Source of the DNA: a virus | IMG/VR virus record: IMGVR_UViG_3300035390_000055 | Location: 1 to 40,792 of that record | Strand: one strand, 5' to 3' | DNA: 40,792 nucleotides | In this document: positions 12,707 to 19,035 of the stretch, one piece after another | How positions within the stretch are numbered: the stretch's first letter is position 1 | How the letters are laid out: each line of letters opens with the position of its first letter | The notes under the pieces: model-generated | Seen by the model: the letters and a program-made list of their open reading frames with translations, nothing else | Database searches by the model: none | Told to the model about the DNA's origin: nothing | Program-made: the position numbers and the translations under genes

Positions 12707-13645
12707 ATGGACTACAATTGGTTTTTTAGCGCATTAGCACAATCTGTTGCGACAATAGTTGGTATATTTGGAGCTTATCTGATAACTAAAATAATTAGTA
12801 GAGATGCTCAATTCGAACAATTAACAAATGATTTGGAAGAAATGAAACTTTTAGTAAAAAATCAAATTAGACGAGTGGAGAGTATTGAATTTGACGAGTA
12901 TAATAGGCAAACAAAATATTTTGTAGCAAAATCAGAATTTTTCGTTATCGCAATGAGTAGTATGAATATAACTAAAATTGAAGAAGTAGATGAATTCATT
13001 TTTGCAGTTGGTTTAAGTATGTTTGTTGAAAGAAAAGAAAATAGAGATTTTACTGAGATGGCATATGTTTTTTTAACGAAAGAAAGGAAAAAGGAGATTG
13101 CAACAGGAAAATACTCAGGTAATGATAAGTTACCAATTCAAGAGAATTTCATAAATAAATATTTTGGACGTAGAGAAGTTAATGTACCGTTATATCGCAA
13201 GCTAAAAAGCGGGATTATTAATGAATTGCTTGCTACTATGTCAATGGCTGAAAAAAGTAATCAAATAAAAAGAAGAGCAAAAACTTTTCCTTTAGAGAAG
13301 AAATTAATTAACTTGGCACTGATATTCTCGGGTCTGTTTTTTTTCGTTGGAGTTGCTTATCCACTCGGTATGTTGCCTTTAGATGGGAATATGGTATATG
13401 AATGGTGGACAGGTAAGATTATCATTTTATCAATTGTTTGTATTTTGTATTTCATTTTTCTATTAGTGTTTTATTTGAAAAACAATAAACAAAATATTAG
13501 TGATGAAAATATGGATTGGGTAGACACGTATTCGAAATATGAGAATTATTCACCATACTATGAAATTTATAAGAAGCATATAGAAAATTTTGAAAAGAAT
13601 GGGTCTATAATAAAAGAGGGGGATATTAATAACTCTTTCTATTGA
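12707..13645 (+). CDS. AT-rich membrane protein (probable moron)
   Basis: This 312-residue protein has one membrane helix at residues 5-27, a coiled-coil and cytoplasmic domain of about 175 residues, two further membrane helices (about 205-225 and 235-258) and a charged tail rich in tyrosine. I recognise no family. The gene is clearly more AT-rich than its flanks, has its own GGAGGTGAGGGT ribosome site and is followed by a strong terminator, which marks it as an insertion. Morons of this form often block superinfecting phages, but that is inference. Confidence 0.75.
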   Translation: MDYNWFFSALAQSVATIVGIFGAYLITKIISRDAQFEQLTNDLEEMKLLVKNQIRRVESIEFDEYNRQTKYFVAKSEFFVIAMSSMNITKIEEVDEFIFAVGLSMFVERKENRDFTEMAYVFLTKERKKEIATGKYSGNDKLPIQENFINKYFGRREVNVPLYRKLKSGIINELLATMSMAEKSNQIKRRAKTFPLEKKLINLALIFSGLFFFVGVAYPLGMLPLDGNMVYEWWTGKIIILSIVCILYFIFLLVFYLKNNKQNISDENMDWVDTYSKYENYSPYYEIYKKHIENFEKNGSIIKEGDINNSFY

Positions 13646-13728: not shown

Positions 13729-13897
13729 TTATGCATAGATATGCAAGAATTCAGGGCCTGAAAATGGGCTTTGAAAAAGGGTTTTAAAACTATTTATTTA
13801 AATTGGCGGGCTACAAGTATTGAAATCACTAAGGCAGGGGCAAGTTGCCCAAGTAGAACATAAGGTAAGTTATGTAATAGGGGGGTTGAAGGGCTGT

Positions 13898-14758
13898 ATG
13901 CGTTCAAATTTCAACGATTACACGGAATTATTTGCAAAATATATGCGTTCTGAAAAACGGAGTGAAAACACCATAAAGTGTTACCTTGGAGACCTGCGGC
14001 AAGTGGGGAAGCTTGCATCTTTATACAATGCGAATATTGAGGACATAGACCAGACAATTATCGAGAAAATCAAGGGTGAATTCTTTGGCCGTGGACTGTC
14101 GGTGAAGACGGTAAATCGCAAATTGATTAGCATCAACCGGTACCTCCAGTATGTCACTCACAATTCAGATATACCTGTCCGGACCGATATCAAAATTGAG
14201 TTCGCTAAGTTCCAGCACCAGGAGTACCTAGAGGACATGATGACCGTGGCGGACTTCAAAAGGTTGGTTAGATTTGCCGAGCGGGAGAATGATTATCGAG
14301 CGATTGGCGTATTTTATACATTGTTCATGACGGGAATGAGAGTATCGGAGATGCTGCAGCTGCGGCTCGAGGATGTTAAGGAAAACATTGTCTCGGTTAA
14401 AGGTAAGGGAACGAAGTACAGGAATGTATTTATCCCTATCAAGCTCAAGAAATATTGGGCCCGGTATCTTCGAATCAGAGATAACACGGATGACGAGGCA
14501 CTTTTTACCGGTCCTTGTGGTCCCATGAACAGGCAGACGGTTCATCGGATAATTAAGAAATATGCTGGCAGGGCCAGGGTGAAATTGAAGAAGGCCCATG
14601 CTCACAATTTCCGGCACCTCTTCGCGCTGGAGATGCTCCGGAACGGACTTTCAATCAGTGAAGTGGCGGATCTTCTTGGTCATTCAGATATCAATATTAC
14701 AAGGATCTATACAAGGAAGACAAAGAAGCAGCTGCTTAAAGCAATAAACAAAATGTAG
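13898..14758 (+). CDS. Tyrosine recombinase (XerC/D-like)
   Basis: This 286-residue protein has an N-terminal SAM-like core-binding domain (1-105) and a full catalytic set: Arg148 in GMRVSE, Lys170 in KGKG, His236 and Arg239 in HNFRH, His262 in LGHSDI and Tyr271. The phage already has a serine integrase at its left end, so this enzyme probably does another job, such as dimer resolution or late-region recombination. It lies next to the late regulator, as in several phages of Clostridia. ATG13898 is favoured over an upstream TTG (13820) because the core-binding domain begins there. Confidence 0.88.
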   Translation: MRSNFNDYTELFAKYMRSEKRSENTIKCYLGDLRQVGKLASLYNANIEDIDQTIIEKIKGEFFGRGLSVKTVNRKLISINRYLQYVTHNSDIPVRTDIKIEFAKFQHQEYLEDMMTVADFKRLVRFAERENDYRAIGVFYTLFMTGMRVSEMLQLRLEDVKENIVSVKGKGTKYRNVFIPIKLKKYWARYLRIRDNTDDEALFTGPCGPMNRQTVHRIIKKYAGRARVKLKKAHAHNFRHLFALEMLRNGLSISEVADLLGHSDINITRIYTRKTKKQLLKAINKM

Positions 14759-14769
14759 GAGGGATAGCG

Positions 14770-15162
14770 ATGAATATATATTTAGCAGGGAAAATGGCAG
14801 GGCTGTCATATGAAGAAATGAACGAATGGAGAATAAAAGCGAAGACATGGCTAAAGGATGCAGGCTTCGGGATACTCAATCCTGTGGAATCGGGAATCAG
14901 CGAGGAGTCGAGTACGAAGGAAATAGTAATGAACAACAAGGCGATGATTATGAAGAGCGATATCATCCTGGCGGAGTTCAATAATGAGGATGTAAGCTTC
15001 GGAACAATTGGAGAGGTCGTTTTTTCAAGTGGGCACCAGAAACCGGTTATAACTTGGGGAAGTCATCCGATAGAAAATCCGTGGATACAGGAGCATGTGG
15101 TTAAGCATTTCGATGAACTAGAGGAAGCAGTGGCATACTTGATAAGTTGCTATTTTTTCTGA
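14770..15162 (+). CDS. Nucleoside 2-deoxyribosyltransferase-like protein
   Basis: The N-terminal IYLAGKMAGL matches the YLAGP motif of this family. The fold continues with helix, strand (SDIILAEFNNEDVSFGTIGE) and a Glu in the position of the usual nucleophile region. At 130 residues it is close to family size. It could move a deoxyribose between bases or cleave a base, and in phages it may tune nucleotide pools or modify DNA precursors. AGGAGGG precedes the start. Substrate unknown. Confidence 0.72.
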   Translation: MNIYLAGKMAGLSYEEMNEWRIKAKTWLKDAGFGILNPVESGISEESSTKEIVMNNKAMIMKSDIILAEFNNEDVSFGTIGEVVFSSGHQKPVITWGSHPIENPWIQEHVVKHFDELEEAVAYLISCYFF

Positions 15163-15177: not shown

Positions 15178-15630
15178 ATGAATTGTATAAAAGAGGCTGA
15201 AGAGCTGTTGTTGAACTATAGAGATATGAAGTACAGCATCAAGCGAATGGAACGAGAGATAGAACGCCTGGCAAATGGGCCAAAAGATATCGAGGCCATT
15301 CAGTATGATAAGCCGGGCAGCAAGAAGTATTACAACCAGGATGAAACCTTGAATTGTCTTTATAAAATCAAGAAACTGTCCGATATGAAAAAGAAGACTG
15401 AAGAAAGAATCCAAGAGATTAATCAAGTATTGGATGATATGGATAAAGATCCGGATTGTGATTTCTTCAAGGAAGTGCTGGTAATGTGGTACATTGAGAA
15501 ATTGTCTAAGGATATGATAGCAGATGAGATAGGATATTCGAGCAGGAAGAGTGTTTACTTATTGAGAAAAAAAGCGGTAAAGAAGTTTTCAACGATGGTA
15601 TTTGGTTTAAATGAGTATCTTTTTGAATGA
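15178..15630 (+). CDS. ArpU/RinA-like late transcription regulator
   Basis: The 150-residue protein has a coiled-coil N-terminus and a C-terminal sigma-region-4-like helix-turn-helix (SKDMIADEIGYSSRKSVYLL). This layout is typical of phage late-gene activators placed just before the packaging genes. It probably activates the structural operon. The most likely targets are the palindromes at 15716-15742 or 17186-17205. Confidence 0.8.
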   Translation: MNCIKEAEELLLNYRDMKYSIKRMEREIERLANGPKDIEAIQYDKPGSKKYYNQDETLNCLYKIKKLSDMKKKTEERIQEINQVLDDMDKDPDCDFFKEVLVMWYIEKLSKDMIADEIGYSSRKSVYLLRKKAVKKFSTMVFGLNEYLFE

Positions 15631-15854: not shown

Positions 15855-16250
15855 ATGGGTAGTAATATGCTATTAGAGAAATCATTGGAAAACAAAAATA
15901 CAGCTGATTGGGCAGAAAAACAAGAGTATTATGATGTGGCAATTAGTAGATTGTATTATTCTATGTATCAAAAAATCATTTCGATTGCTAACAAAAGAGA
16001 GTATAAAATTGTTAAGAAAAAAGGAAAGGGTTCTCATTATCATTTCATAAATGATTTTATAATAAAAGCAAAAGAAGAATCAGTTGTTGAACCAACTGAT
16101 TGTATATATTTATATAAGATTAATGCGCTTCGTGAACTTAGAAATACTTCTGATTATGATAATGTAAAGATTGAAGATGAAGATGAATTTAAGATGAATT
16201 TTAAATCTTATTATATAAAAATAGATCAAGTGCTATGTAGGTTGATATAG
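15855..16250 (+). CDS. HEPN-domain protein (candidate toxin)
   Basis: This 131-residue protein fits the UPF0332-type HEPN fold, with helix SRLYYSMYQKIISIANKR (31-48) and the RNTSDYD signature (96-102) that takes the place of the Rx4-6H RNase motif. HEPN proteins are often RNases or tRNA-modifying toxins; whether this variant is active is unclear. It is very AT-rich compared with the neighbouring packaging genes and is followed 14 bases later by an unknown gene and then a SecB-like gene. That order matches a toxin-antitoxin-chaperone system. Confidence 0.72.
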   Translation: MGSNMLLEKSLENKNTADWAEKQEYYDVAISRLYYSMYQKIISIANKREYKIVKKKGKGSHYHFINDFIIKAKEESVVEPTDCIYLYKINALRELRNTSDYDNVKIEDEDEFKMNFKSYYIKIDQVLCRLI

Positions 16251-16264
16251 GGAGGATATTATTT

Positions 16265-16723
16265 ATGAATAATCAAGAAAAACAGAAAATAATAGTCGAA
16301 TTTTTACACATAATCAGAAAAGAATATAGCGAGATATATATTAATTATTACTATAATGTTGAGGCAGATCAATTTTTTATTTATCATGATGATTATAATC
16401 TTCAATTTGATAATGAAAAGTTTAATATTTTAATATATGAATTGATTGAAGAAATGTTTTATGGAAACGATTTTGTTAATTTTTCTTTTGGCTTTGATGG
16501 ATTAAAAGTAAAAGAAGATCACAAAAGGATATTTGATTCATTGAAAAATTATACTTTTGAAGATATCGAAATAAAGACTGGAAATCTCACAATAAAGAAC
16601 TGCAAAGAAGATGAAACTAGTACAATGAGTGAAAATGTGTATAATGAAAATCAAAAGTGCAGTGAAATTAAACATTGGAATATCAGTGATTTTAGTTTCA
16701 ATGGGGGGTGCCTTGCAGCGTAA
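16265..16723 (+). CDS. Unknown middle protein of the HEPN triad (candidate antitoxin)
   Basis: This acidic 152-residue protein is rich in Tyr, Phe and Asp/Glu, and I do not recognise its family. Residues 1-110 look globular. A polar linker then leads to an aromatic tail, KHWNISDFSFNGGCLAA. In known toxin-antitoxin-chaperone systems the antitoxin ends in a short hydrophobic chaperone-addiction tail bound by SecB-like proteins, and this tail is a candidate. The stop and the next start overlap as TAATG, which ties its synthesis to the chaperone. Confidence 0.65.
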   Translation: MNNQEKQKIIVEFLHIIRKEYSEIYINYYYNVEADQFFIYHDDYNLQFDNEKFNILIYELIEEMFYGNDFVNFSFGFDGLKVKEDHKRIFDSLKNYTFEDIEIKTGNLTIKNCKEDETSTMSENVYNENQKCSEIKHWNISDFSFNGGCLAA

Positions 16724-17154
16724 TGGATAAGGATAAGCAACCGGGGATTAAATTTGAAAATGTTGTATTAATTGAAGAAAAATTTTGGAGAGATTATGAT
16801 GTAAAGAGCACATGCGAAACAGATATTTCGTTTGAATTATCGAAAAACACTCAAAACAATAAACATTTTACAAAAATCAAGACAGAATTTGTATGTATTG
16901 ATAATGAGAAAGAAGTTCTTAATTTAAGCTGTGTTTTCGTTGGAATTTTTTCGGAAGAAGAAGGTAATGAAAATTTAAATATCGAAGAATATATTAATGA
17001 GTTTTCGGCAGCTTTAATGTTTCCATACATACGAGAACATCTTTACACTGTGACTAGTAAAGCAGGAATTAAACCGTTAAGATTGCCACCAATGAATATT
17101 CTCGCTTTATTGAAGAAAAACGAAGAGAAAAAAGAGAAGGTCGAAGAATTATAA
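16723..17154 (+). CDS. SecB-like chaperone
   Basis: The 143-residue protein follows the SecB fold through its length. The strongest part is the C-terminal helix and loop with MFPYIREHL (99-107) and LPPMNILALL (121-130), which align with E. coli SecB segments around LFPYARECI and LAPVNFDAL. Gram-positives normally lack SecB. Small SecB-like proteins outside Proteobacteria are known from toxin-antitoxin-chaperone modules, where they protect the antitoxin. Here it overlaps the middle gene by one base. A stem-loop terminator follows. Confidence 0.85.
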   Translation: MDKDKQPGIKFENVVLIEEKFWRDYDVKSTCETDISFELSKNTQNNKHFTKIKTEFVCIDNEKEVLNLSCVFVGIFSEEEGNENLNIEEYINEFSAALMFPYIREHLYTVTSKAGIKPLRLPPMNILALLKKNEEKKEKVEEL

Positions 17155-17205: not shown

Positions 17206-17244
17206 TGAGAGCAGTGTCTCAGCAGACAAATCTTAGTTCGGGAG

Positions 17245-17276
17245 CAAGCATCCAATAGGGTGCTTGTTTTATTTTA
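17245..17276 (+). terminator. Intrinsic terminator before the packaging genes
   Basis: CAAGCATCC and GGGTGCTTG pair around an AATA loop (17245-17266), followed by TTTTATTTTAT. It closes the HEPN triad. If the late promoter is upstream of it, read-through or antitermination would be needed for late genes. Confidence 0.7.
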
Positions 17277-17799: not shown

Positions 17800-19035
17800 T
17801 TGCCATACGACAACAATCCAAGAATAAATGACGGTGCGGTAGAAAACGTTCTCAAGTCAATAAGTGAATTTGGGTTCAAGGTACCAATAGTACTAGATAA
17901 GGATTATGTGATTGTTACAGGGCATGTGAGGTACAAGGCTGCTAGACAGATGGGGCTTAAAAAGGTTCCATGCATTGTTGCAAGCGACCTGACAGAAGAG
18001 CAGATTAAGGCATATAGACTGGCAGACAATAAGACGGCTGAGTACGCCGAGTGGGATATGGAGAAGTTGGAACAGGAGCTGATGGCTTTGTCGGAGATAG
18101 GCTTCGATATTGAGAAGTTTGACTTTCAACTAAAGGATATTGCATCAGACGATGACTTCGACTTTGAAAGTGCTATTGAATCGATCGAGGAACCGGTGAC
18201 CAAAAGCGGGGATATATGGCTTCTGGGTAGACACAGGTTGCTATGTGGAGACAGCACATGCAAGAAAGCATATGAGAGACTGATGAATGGAATGCAGGCA
18301 GGCCTAATCATAACGGATCCGCCGTACAATGTTGATTACACAGGCGGAACTAAGCAGAAAATGAAAATCATGAACGATAGCATGCCCGATGATGTATTCC
18401 AGGAATTCTTGAAAGAAGCTCATTCGAGAATGCACGAAGCGCTTGAACCGGGAGCTCCGATATACGTGTTCCATGCAGACAGCGAGGGAAACAGCTTCAG
18501 GACAGCGTTCACGAGTGCAGGCTTTAAGCTTTCGCAATGTCTCATATGGGTTAAGCAATCCATGGTGCTTGGACGTCAGGACTACCATTGGCGCCATGAG
18601 CCGATACTGTACGGTTGGAAGAAGGGTGCCGCGCACAAGTGGTACGGAGACCGCTGTAATGATACCGTCATAGACGAAGAAAAGATAGTTTTCAGCAAGG
18701 CAAAGAAAGAGGACCTAATAGAGATAATCAAGGATATGCAGCAAAAAATATATTTGAATTCAACTATCATCTATCAAGACAGACCAACTTCAAATGCCGA
18801 TCATCCGACTATGAAGCCGGTGAAACTGATTGGCAAGCTTATGGATAATTCTTCAGAGCGAGGCACATTGGTTCTGGATCCTTTCGGGGGAAGTGGTAGC
18901 ACGCTGATTGCTTCCGAACAGATGGGAAGAACCTGCAACACAATGGAGCTTGATCCTAAATACTGCGATGTAATCGTTCGCAGGTGGGAGGAATGCACGA
19001 GCCAAAAGGCGGAGAGGATACATGGCCAAGCATAA
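17800..19035 (+). CDS. ParB-like nuclease domain fused to DNA methyltransferase
   Basis: The first 100 residues are a ParB-like domain (VTGHVRYKAARQMG) and the rest is a beta-class amino methyltransferase, with DPPY motif (IITDPPYNVDY) before the SAM-binding DPFGGSGST motif. It probably makes N6-methyladenine or N4-methylcytosine to protect phage DNA or mark packaging sites. The family's first strand (REIDIDEILPYDNNPRIN) begins upstream of the first usual start, TTG17800. The true start may be a non-standard ATT (17755) overlapping the previous gene. Confidence 0.88.
   Translation: MPYDNNPRINDGAVENVLKSISEFGFKVPIVLDKDYVIVTGHVRYKAARQMGLKKVPCIVASDLTEEQIKAYRLADNKTAEYAEWDMEKLEQELMALSEIGFDIEKFDFQLKDIASDDDFDFESAIESIEEPVTKSGDIWLLGRHRLLCGDSTCKKAYERLMNGMQAGLIITDPPYNVDYTGGTKQKMKIMNDSMPDDVFQEFLKEAHSRMHEALEPGAPIYVFHADSEGNSFRTAFTSAGFKLSQCLIWVKQSMVLGRQDYHWRHEPILYGWKKGAAHKWYGDRCNDTVIDEEKIVFSKAKKEDLIEIIKDMQQKIYLNSTIIYQDRPTSNADHPTMKPVKLIGKLMDNSSERGTLVLDPFGGSGSTLIASEQMGRTCNTMELDPKYCDVIVRRWEECTSQKAERIHGQA

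Follow-up and report, generated by a model that had tools for sequence, protein, structure and literature searches.

Toxin-antitoxin-chaperone (TAC) systems have been described with antitoxins of the HigA and MqsA families and, less often, HicB (PMC5105189), and an ADP-ribosyltransferase type was added to them by PMC7159879. Phage capsid or tail proteins act as the triggers of CmdTAC, which is the system PD-T4-9 (PMC9519451), and of HigBAC (PMC11618068, PMC11980606); in HigBAC, the major tail protein of lambda disrupts the contact between antitoxin and chaperone (PMC11980606). CmdA, the antitoxin of CmdTAC, ends in Leu-Ala-Ala and is degraded by ClpP (PMC11618068), and HigA1 ends in Val-Ala (PMC8165232). 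The toxin CmdT shows no high toxicity by itself (author correction, PMC11445053).

Here we analyze a three-gene locus in a viral DNA record of 40,792 nucleotides, the whole of which is referred to below as the window. An earlier note, made from the sequence alone, had proposed that the locus is a TAC system on a prophage. We consider it likely that the triad is a TAC operon that encodes an HEPN RNase with an alternative active site, a tail-bearing antitoxin, and a SecB-like guard, and that it is phage triggered.

Organization and setting of the locus

The operon consists of three genes and a closing hairpin, as follows.

15855..16250, + strand: gene 1, HEPN-fold protein and predicted RNase toxin, 131 aa (ORF, AlphaFold2, structure and profile matches)
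16265..16723, + strand: gene 2, predicted antitoxin of a new family, 152 aa (ORF; 21 members including the window)
16723..17154, + strand: gene 3, SecB-like TAC chaperone, 143 aa, ATG start (Pfam SecB, PADLOC PD-T4-9_C)
17241..17270, + strand: intrinsic terminator-like hairpin closing the operon (terminator scan)

The earlier note had described three tightly packed, AT-rich genes, closed by a terminator and placed between a late regulator and packaging genes, and the ORF coordinates, composition, and neighbors bear this description out. Genes 1 and 2 are separated by 14 bases, and the sequence TAATG forms the overlap of genes 2 and 3. At 27% GC, the triad is below both the whole record (41%) and the gene that follows (42%), and when the record is scanned in 50-base steps, the 1300 bases of lowest GC start at 15601. 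Three terminator-like sites were found in the region against a shuffle mean of 0.3; besides the hairpin at 17241-17270, they represent a single site within gene 1 that is counted on both strands. Promoter-like sites in the region are not in excess (11, with 12.8 expected by chance), so a promoter belonging to the triad itself is not shown. The left neighbor is a late-regulator-like gene (phrog_36, 7.5e-14; DUF1492 barely over the cut-off), and the right neighbor is the small terminase (phrog_309).

The nearest relatives of the large terminase are found in a human-gut phage (51%) and in Butyrivibrio phages (46%), a relatedness that supports a Clostridia host without proof. The record is consistent with the Clostridia-type prophage put forward in the earlier note, with support of this kind from sequence comparison and no more. 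In two relatives of the small terminase (63% and 61%), the triad is absent from the stretch examined, which comprised 16 and 13 ORFs; absence here means that matches of these ORFs to the three profiles never fell below E 0.04. Since these relatives lack it, the triad appears from sequence to behave as cargo.

Several other genes lie close by. A tyrosine integrase gene (13820-14758; PF00589, 1.6e-31) lies midway along the record, a short distance upstream of the late-regulator-like gene. Beside the integrase gene, in a stretch of 29% GC, there is a 312-aa ORF without a Pfam match (12707-13645), which may be another piece of foreign cargo. A nucleoside 2-deoxyribosyltransferase-like protein is encoded at 14770-15162 (PF05014, 2.6e-9). 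A 411-aa protein (17800-19035), flanked by the small terminase on one side and an HNH protein on the other, appears by eye to combine a ParB-type domain with a DNA methylase (DPPY motif).

Gene 3 encodes a SecB-like chaperone

Gene 3 matches Pfam SecB at 5.7e-9 and 36.4 bits, above the 26-bit cut-off, as expected from the earlier reading of this gene as SecB-like. Its best-scoring profile is PADLOC PD-T4-9_C (1.4e-15, 55.7 bits), and by this match it qualifies as a CmdC-type chaperone. The NCBIfam export SecB models give 34.7 bits at most, with cut-offs of 102.8 or more.

Could gene 3 simply be a SecB for ordinary export that the phage happens to carry, with no relation to its neighbors? The Pfam SecB match alone would allow this. 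However, the same neighbors accompany the chaperone in 15 loci, and PD-T4-9_C outscores both Pfam SecB and the NCBIfam export models, the latter staying below their cut-offs. We find this explanation scarcely credible and rejected it on these grounds, keeping gene 3 as the predicted chaperone of a TAC operon.

Predicted HEPN fold and active site of gene 1

The AlphaFold2 model of gene 1 consists of five helices (pLDDT 89.1). Its top structural match is AF0298 (2hsb; Z 15.1, 2.0 A over 119 residues), and most of the entries ranked after it are HEPN proteins as well; with Foldseek, nothing was found at 0.001 or below (best E 5.1e-3). Taken alone, gene 1 reaches Pfam HEPN at E 0.076 and 13.6 bits, below the 22-bit cut-off, and nine of the 10 aligned members, including the window protein, match it at E <=0.1 (best 3.2e-7). 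A profile built from these 10 sequences matched the PDB HEPN chains 9xbd (7.9e-8) and 9xbc (7.6e-7) and, weakly, AF0298/2hsb (0.043). PADLOC gave no match of gene 1 to PD-T4-9_A. By the predicted model, gene 1 has the HEPN helical fold. The earlier note had assigned gene 1 to HEPN and had named the lack of such a fold as a possible refutation, which the model and the member profiles now remove.

Conservation points to four residues as the predicted active site.

16035-16037, + strand: His61 of gene 1
16140-16142, + strand: Arg96 of gene 1
16152-16154, + strand: Asp100 of gene 1
16155-16157, + strand: Tyr101 of gene 1

His61, Arg96, and Tyr101 are invariant in all 16 members, window included, and Asp100 is present in 15 of the 16. 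The Rx4-6H motif is not met in the window protein, which reads R96xxxDY without a histidine at that spacing. This histidine is missing from 14 of the 16 members; the two that have it are L012 and L053 (spacing 5 and 6). In the AF0298-like HEPN-T and AbiV proteins, the arginine is kept, the usual histidine is lost, and a second invariant histidine lies before the arginine, a layout for which an alternative RNase site has been suggested (PMC3710099). Gene 1 fits this layout, as His61 provides the alternative conserved histidine ahead of the arginine motif (16/16). The loss of the usual HEPN histidine, with an alternative one kept, had not been noticed in the earlier note. RNase activity is uncertain because the usual histidine is missing; we infer RNase action as plausible.

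Gene 2 encodes a predicted antitoxin that joins a folded head to a disordered tail

Three parts of gene 2 could be delimited.

16265..16510, + strand: folded head, residues 1-82, alpha-beta-beta-alpha-alpha-beta (AlphaFold2)
16511..16720, + strand: disordered tail, residues 83-152, candidate chaperone-addiction (ChAD) region (AlphaFold2)
16712..16720, + strand: C-terminal Leu-Ala-Ala, candidate ClpXP degradation signal (member endings)

No family in Pfam, PADLOC, PHROGs, or NCBIfam matched gene 2 (E up to 1), so the family remains unknown, as the earlier note had it. Searches of 13 members against family models returned just scattered weak matches, each in a single member, and the HigA, MqsA, and HicB models were unmatched in 13 members (E up to 0.1). 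All 21 members lie immediately upstream of a chaperone gene; the match of this gene is only weak in L064 and is doubtful in L066. We predict that gene 2 encodes the antitoxin, of a new family.

The AlphaFold2 model agrees with the earlier description of an antitoxin-like protein with a tail: block means for residues 1-80 are 88-97, and residues 85-149 have a pLDDT of <50. The last 30 residues include four aromatics. The C-terminal Ala-Ala, the end of an LAA sequence in the window protein that the earlier note had not remarked on, is present in 18 of the 21 members; the others end in VA (L005), AS (L037), and PC (L066). Neither AA nor VA ends any of the 31 partner proteins (0/16 HEPN, 0/15 chaperone). 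Apart from the C-terminal end, no tail motif is visible among the members. The LAA is a candidate ClpXP signal, and degradation is inferred.

The fold of the head is less readily placed. Foldseek found no reliable match in the PDB (best E 0.038) or among viral models (best E 0.047), and VIA ranked PrgH first (Z 7.5), with KhpB at 7.2 and many ribosomal S3 rows. The head thus bears a weak likeness, at Z <=7.5, to KH-type and ring-building folds. Its alpha-beta-beta-alpha-alpha-beta order matches the topology of type II KH domains. Only one GxxG occurs among the 21 members, in the window protein at residue 76, and it lies outside the loop that joins the two helices. The KH-like label is weak, since it rests only on topology and this weak structural likeness, and with Z scores that tie with unrelated folds, the model offers a hint only.

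The same comparisons bear on a type VII HEPN-MNT-like arrangement, in which gene 2 would be a decayed nucleotidyltransferase that modifies Tyr101 of the HEPN protein. This tyrosine is present in 16/16 members, and the head weakly resembles nucleotidyltransferases (Z ~6). However, that resemblance is no better than the one to KH or ring-building folds, Pfam nucleotidyltransferase was unmatched in 13 members (the window protein and 12 relatives; E up to 0.1), and a loose G[ST]...DxD pattern occurs in only two of 21 members (L008 and L040), not in the window protein. We rejected an HEPN-MNT identity for want of a nucleotidyltransferase match in gene 2 and regard the arrangement as very improbable. 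Gene 2 is better taken as a predicted antitoxin that would act by binding.

The gene order recurs in distant relatives

The earlier note had suggested a homologue search for the same gene order and would have counted its absence elsewhere as a refutation. Such a search passes this check and yields 14 further intact loci, nine on viral contigs and five in Cloacimonadota genomes, which brings the intact triads to 15 with the window; the order is kept in distant relatives. Intergenic gaps range from -37 to +14 bases in 14 of the 15 triads and are 3 and 3 in L009. The set includes L064 despite its weak SecB match (2.3e-6 with our own profile; none with Pfam). Not counted as intact triads are L053, whose SecB is spread over two ORFs, L066, with HEPN in two frames and a weak third gene, L037, with a mere HEPN remnant, L002/L015 (HEPN cut), L003 (contig edge), and L019 (short gene 2, HEPN not found). 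Two further rows were dropped: L048 (unverified record, no SecB ORF recovered) and L044/L056 (G009), in which the contig ends within the chaperone.

Searches with the chaperone, in which later queries included earlier matches, gave 20 distinct viral contigs. Classed by ORFs and profiles, 11 have the gene 2 family, seven have other candidate toxins, and two are cut by the contig end. PD-T4-9_A was matched in four of the seven other-toxin contigs (L014, L027, L028, and L034); L029 has no such match, and its 203-aa gene is also present in L030 and L031. In L027 (3738-5008), the module is CmdTAC-like with the PD-T4-9_A toxin gene (4.7e-43) after the chaperone rather than leading the operon. In L029 (2773-4138) and L046 (1963-3414), a gene of ~200 aa lies ahead of a small middle gene and a SecB-like chaperone; neither the PD-T4-9_A nor the HEPN profile matched these ~200-aa genes, which are possible further TAC toxin types.

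Among 98 genomes of the Cloacimonadota phylum, 16 matched the CmdC profile. Seven of these are HEPN/gene 2 systems, and the remaining nine have, by eye, an HTH-type antitoxin before the chaperone, which in one of them (G009) is cut by the contig end. Gene 2 itself was found in seven of 124 genomes of the phylum, in every case beside SecB and an HEPN gene or remnant; two of the seven supplied the query, G032 has SecB in two ORFs, and G016 has an HEPN remnant. The HEPN profile matched 25 times in the 124 genomes, seven times at gene 2 loci and 18 times elsewhere, and all 18 outside matches are weaker than the six intact ones inside. L004 is labeled Armatimonadetes but was drawn from the phylum to which the Cloacimonadota locus L005 belongs.

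Searching the viral contigs with HEPN queries only led back to the same neighborhoods. The window HEPN alone gave nothing useful. A first search returned a single locus, L015, whose contig had previously been found through gene 2 and the chaperone (L002), and a second returned seven loci, five of them on the query's own contigs and two new (L064 and L066). In both new loci, gene 2 lies next to HEPN, and the third gene is weak (2.3e-6) or doubtful (0.042), respectively.

Beyond these sets, 50,697 phage records contained no match to the window HEPN, middle, or SecB protein, and 72,556 plasmid records contained none to the middle or SecB protein. The HEPN protein of L012 was likewise unmatched in both collections; its chaperone matched six phage or plasmid records, and in the four whose module could be read, it is a different one. 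A 24-kb part of the window, compared with phage records by megablast, gave nothing useful, and the antitoxin profile matched none of 296 Spirochaetota genomes, for which there was no positive control. The lack of phage and plasmid matches indicates that the triad is rare among characterized elements.

Covariation and loss of the toxin gene

Across the 15 triads, pairwise distances correlate at r 0.75 for HEPN and gene 2, 0.60 for gene 2 and SecB, and 0.48 for HEPN and SecB. That HEPN and gene 2 give the highest value is expected if these two proteins touch. Shared descent contributes to all three correlations, and relatedness alone could produce them.

The toxin is the part of the module that gets lost. 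In L015/L002, an element with an ORF that resembles, by eye, a transposase gene interrupts the HEPN gene after ~39 residues; the rest of the gene was not found there, and the antitoxin and chaperone genes stay open. In L037, a remnant is all that is kept of HEPN.

These losses also bear on whether the roles might be swapped, with gene 2 as the toxin and the HEPN protein as an RNA-binding antitoxin or regulator. The missing histidine leaves room for such a swap, and HEPN domains without conserved polar residues are thought to be non-catalytic (PMC3710099). Yet His, Arg, and Tyr are invariant in the HEPN proteins, and it is gene 2, not HEPN, that has the features typical of TAC antitoxins, a disordered tail and an LAA end. 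Gene 2 is also open where HEPN is broken in L015/L002 and L037. A swap seems improbable to us, and we retain gene 1 as the predicted toxin and gene 2 as the predicted antitoxin.

Two of the degraded loci have features of their own. In L037/L057, the HEPN remnant, a gene 2 ending in KAS, and SecB lie directly downstream of a nucleotidyltransferase-HEPN pair (by eye). In L066 (2485-3765), HEPN is split in two frames, gene 2 ends in IPC, and the third gene is very weak; here the entire module seems to be decaying together.

Proposed mechanism

The folds, gene order, co-occurrence, and gene 2 tail with its ending were computed here, and the mechanism we propose extends them by inference. Gene 1 would be an HEPN RNase toxin that uses the alternative His-Arg active site, its RNase activity being inferred. 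The gene 2 head would bind and neutralize gene 1, with toxicity and binding both inferred, and the disordered tail would serve as the chaperone-addiction region and, through LAA, as the ClpXP signal. Gene 3 would hold this tail so that the antitoxin folds and survives, an inferred chaperone dependence. A protein of a superinfecting phage may then compete for the chaperone and free the tail, which is the inferred phage trigger. ClpXP would remove the antitoxin with the freed tail, and the HEPN protein would cut RNA, so that growth and phage production stop. The triad is probably a suicide switch that fires on invasion by another virus, with its role in defense inferred. The toxin-antitoxin-chaperone interpretation of the earlier note is supported; the phage trigger that it contained is still an inference.

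The same mechanism could instead serve prophage maintenance (addiction) or a stress response without an anti-phage role. Toxin-antitoxin modules on mobile elements often have such functions, and this common role speaks for maintenance here. The TAC system of M. tuberculosis has also been studied outside phage defense (PMC5105189, PMC8165232). On the other hand, PD-T4-9 supplies the best profile for the chaperone, and both CmdTAC and HigBAC respond to capsid or tail proteins of phages. Maintenance and anti-phage defense are not mutually exclusive. We hold a maintenance or stress role in place of defense to be possible, though unlikely, and keep to a phage-triggered TAC operon as the preferred reading.

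If this reading is true, TAC systems would gain an HEPN toxin together with a previously undescribed antitoxin family, and the chaperone-plus-tail sensor would be a module that nature has wired to unrelated toxins. It would also provide a second means of restraining HEPN RNases. The 15 natural chaperone-tail pairs could be used to ask what sets the recognition of phage proteins by TAC chaperones.

Comparison with known systems

We looked for three hallmarks of TAC systems, and the triad has each of them: a SecB-like chaperone in the same operon (Pfam SecB, overlap with gene 2, order kept in 15 loci), an unstructured C-terminal extension of the antitoxin (residues 85-149), and a ClpXP-type antitoxin ending (LAA, with AA in 18/21; degradation inferred). 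HigBAC, MqsRAC, and HicAB-type TACs share the SecB-like chaperone, the C-terminal antitoxin extension, and the ClpXP-type ending; the triad differs from them in the all-helical HEPN fold of its toxin.

HEPN-MNT (type VII) systems share the HEPN-fold toxin and a conserved tyrosine near the active-site arginine. They differ in that gene 2 has no nucleotidyltransferase match and that gene 1 has the alternative His61 in place of the usual histidine. The AF0298-like HEPN-T/UPF0332 and AbiV proteins are closer to gene 1, with 2hsb as the best structural match and the arginine kept where the usual histidine is lost. Gene 1, in contrast, heads a TAC-like operon, and PMC3710099, in which SecB does not occur, makes no mention of such an association. 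Among the matches listed in the open-access literature, as far as the texts were available, we found no HEPN TAC; these include PMC6377645, PMC12487901, and PMC11980606 and exclude the main 2024 TAC paper and the 2013 review. The available literature that mentions both HEPN and SecB likewise gave no link between them in one system. Because the main 2024 TAC paper and the 2013 review are not covered, priority for an HEPN TAC cannot be claimed.

CmdTAC (PD-T4-9) is similar in its toxin, antitoxin, and SecB-like chaperone gene order, in the long disordered tail of its antitoxin CmdA, which ends in LAA (PMC11618068), and in its chaperone, whose profile matches that of the triad (1.4e-15). Its toxin, however, is an ADP-ribosyltransferase, whereas that of the triad has an HEPN fold, and CmdA is described as having a pair of N-terminal helices where gene 2 has a folded alpha/beta head. 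We rejected membership in CmdTAC, as the triad has no diphtheria-toxin-like ADP-ribosyltransferase and gene 1 is all-helical HEPN without a PD-T4-9_A match. We lean, with some reserve, toward a new class of TAC defense that would combine an HEPN toxin with an alternative His-Arg site, a KH-like-headed and LAA-tailed antitoxin, direct chaperone-dependent neutralization without AMP transfer, and a SecB sensor of virion proteins. The best reading is that the triad works like CmdTAC and HigBAC yet is no member of CmdTAC.
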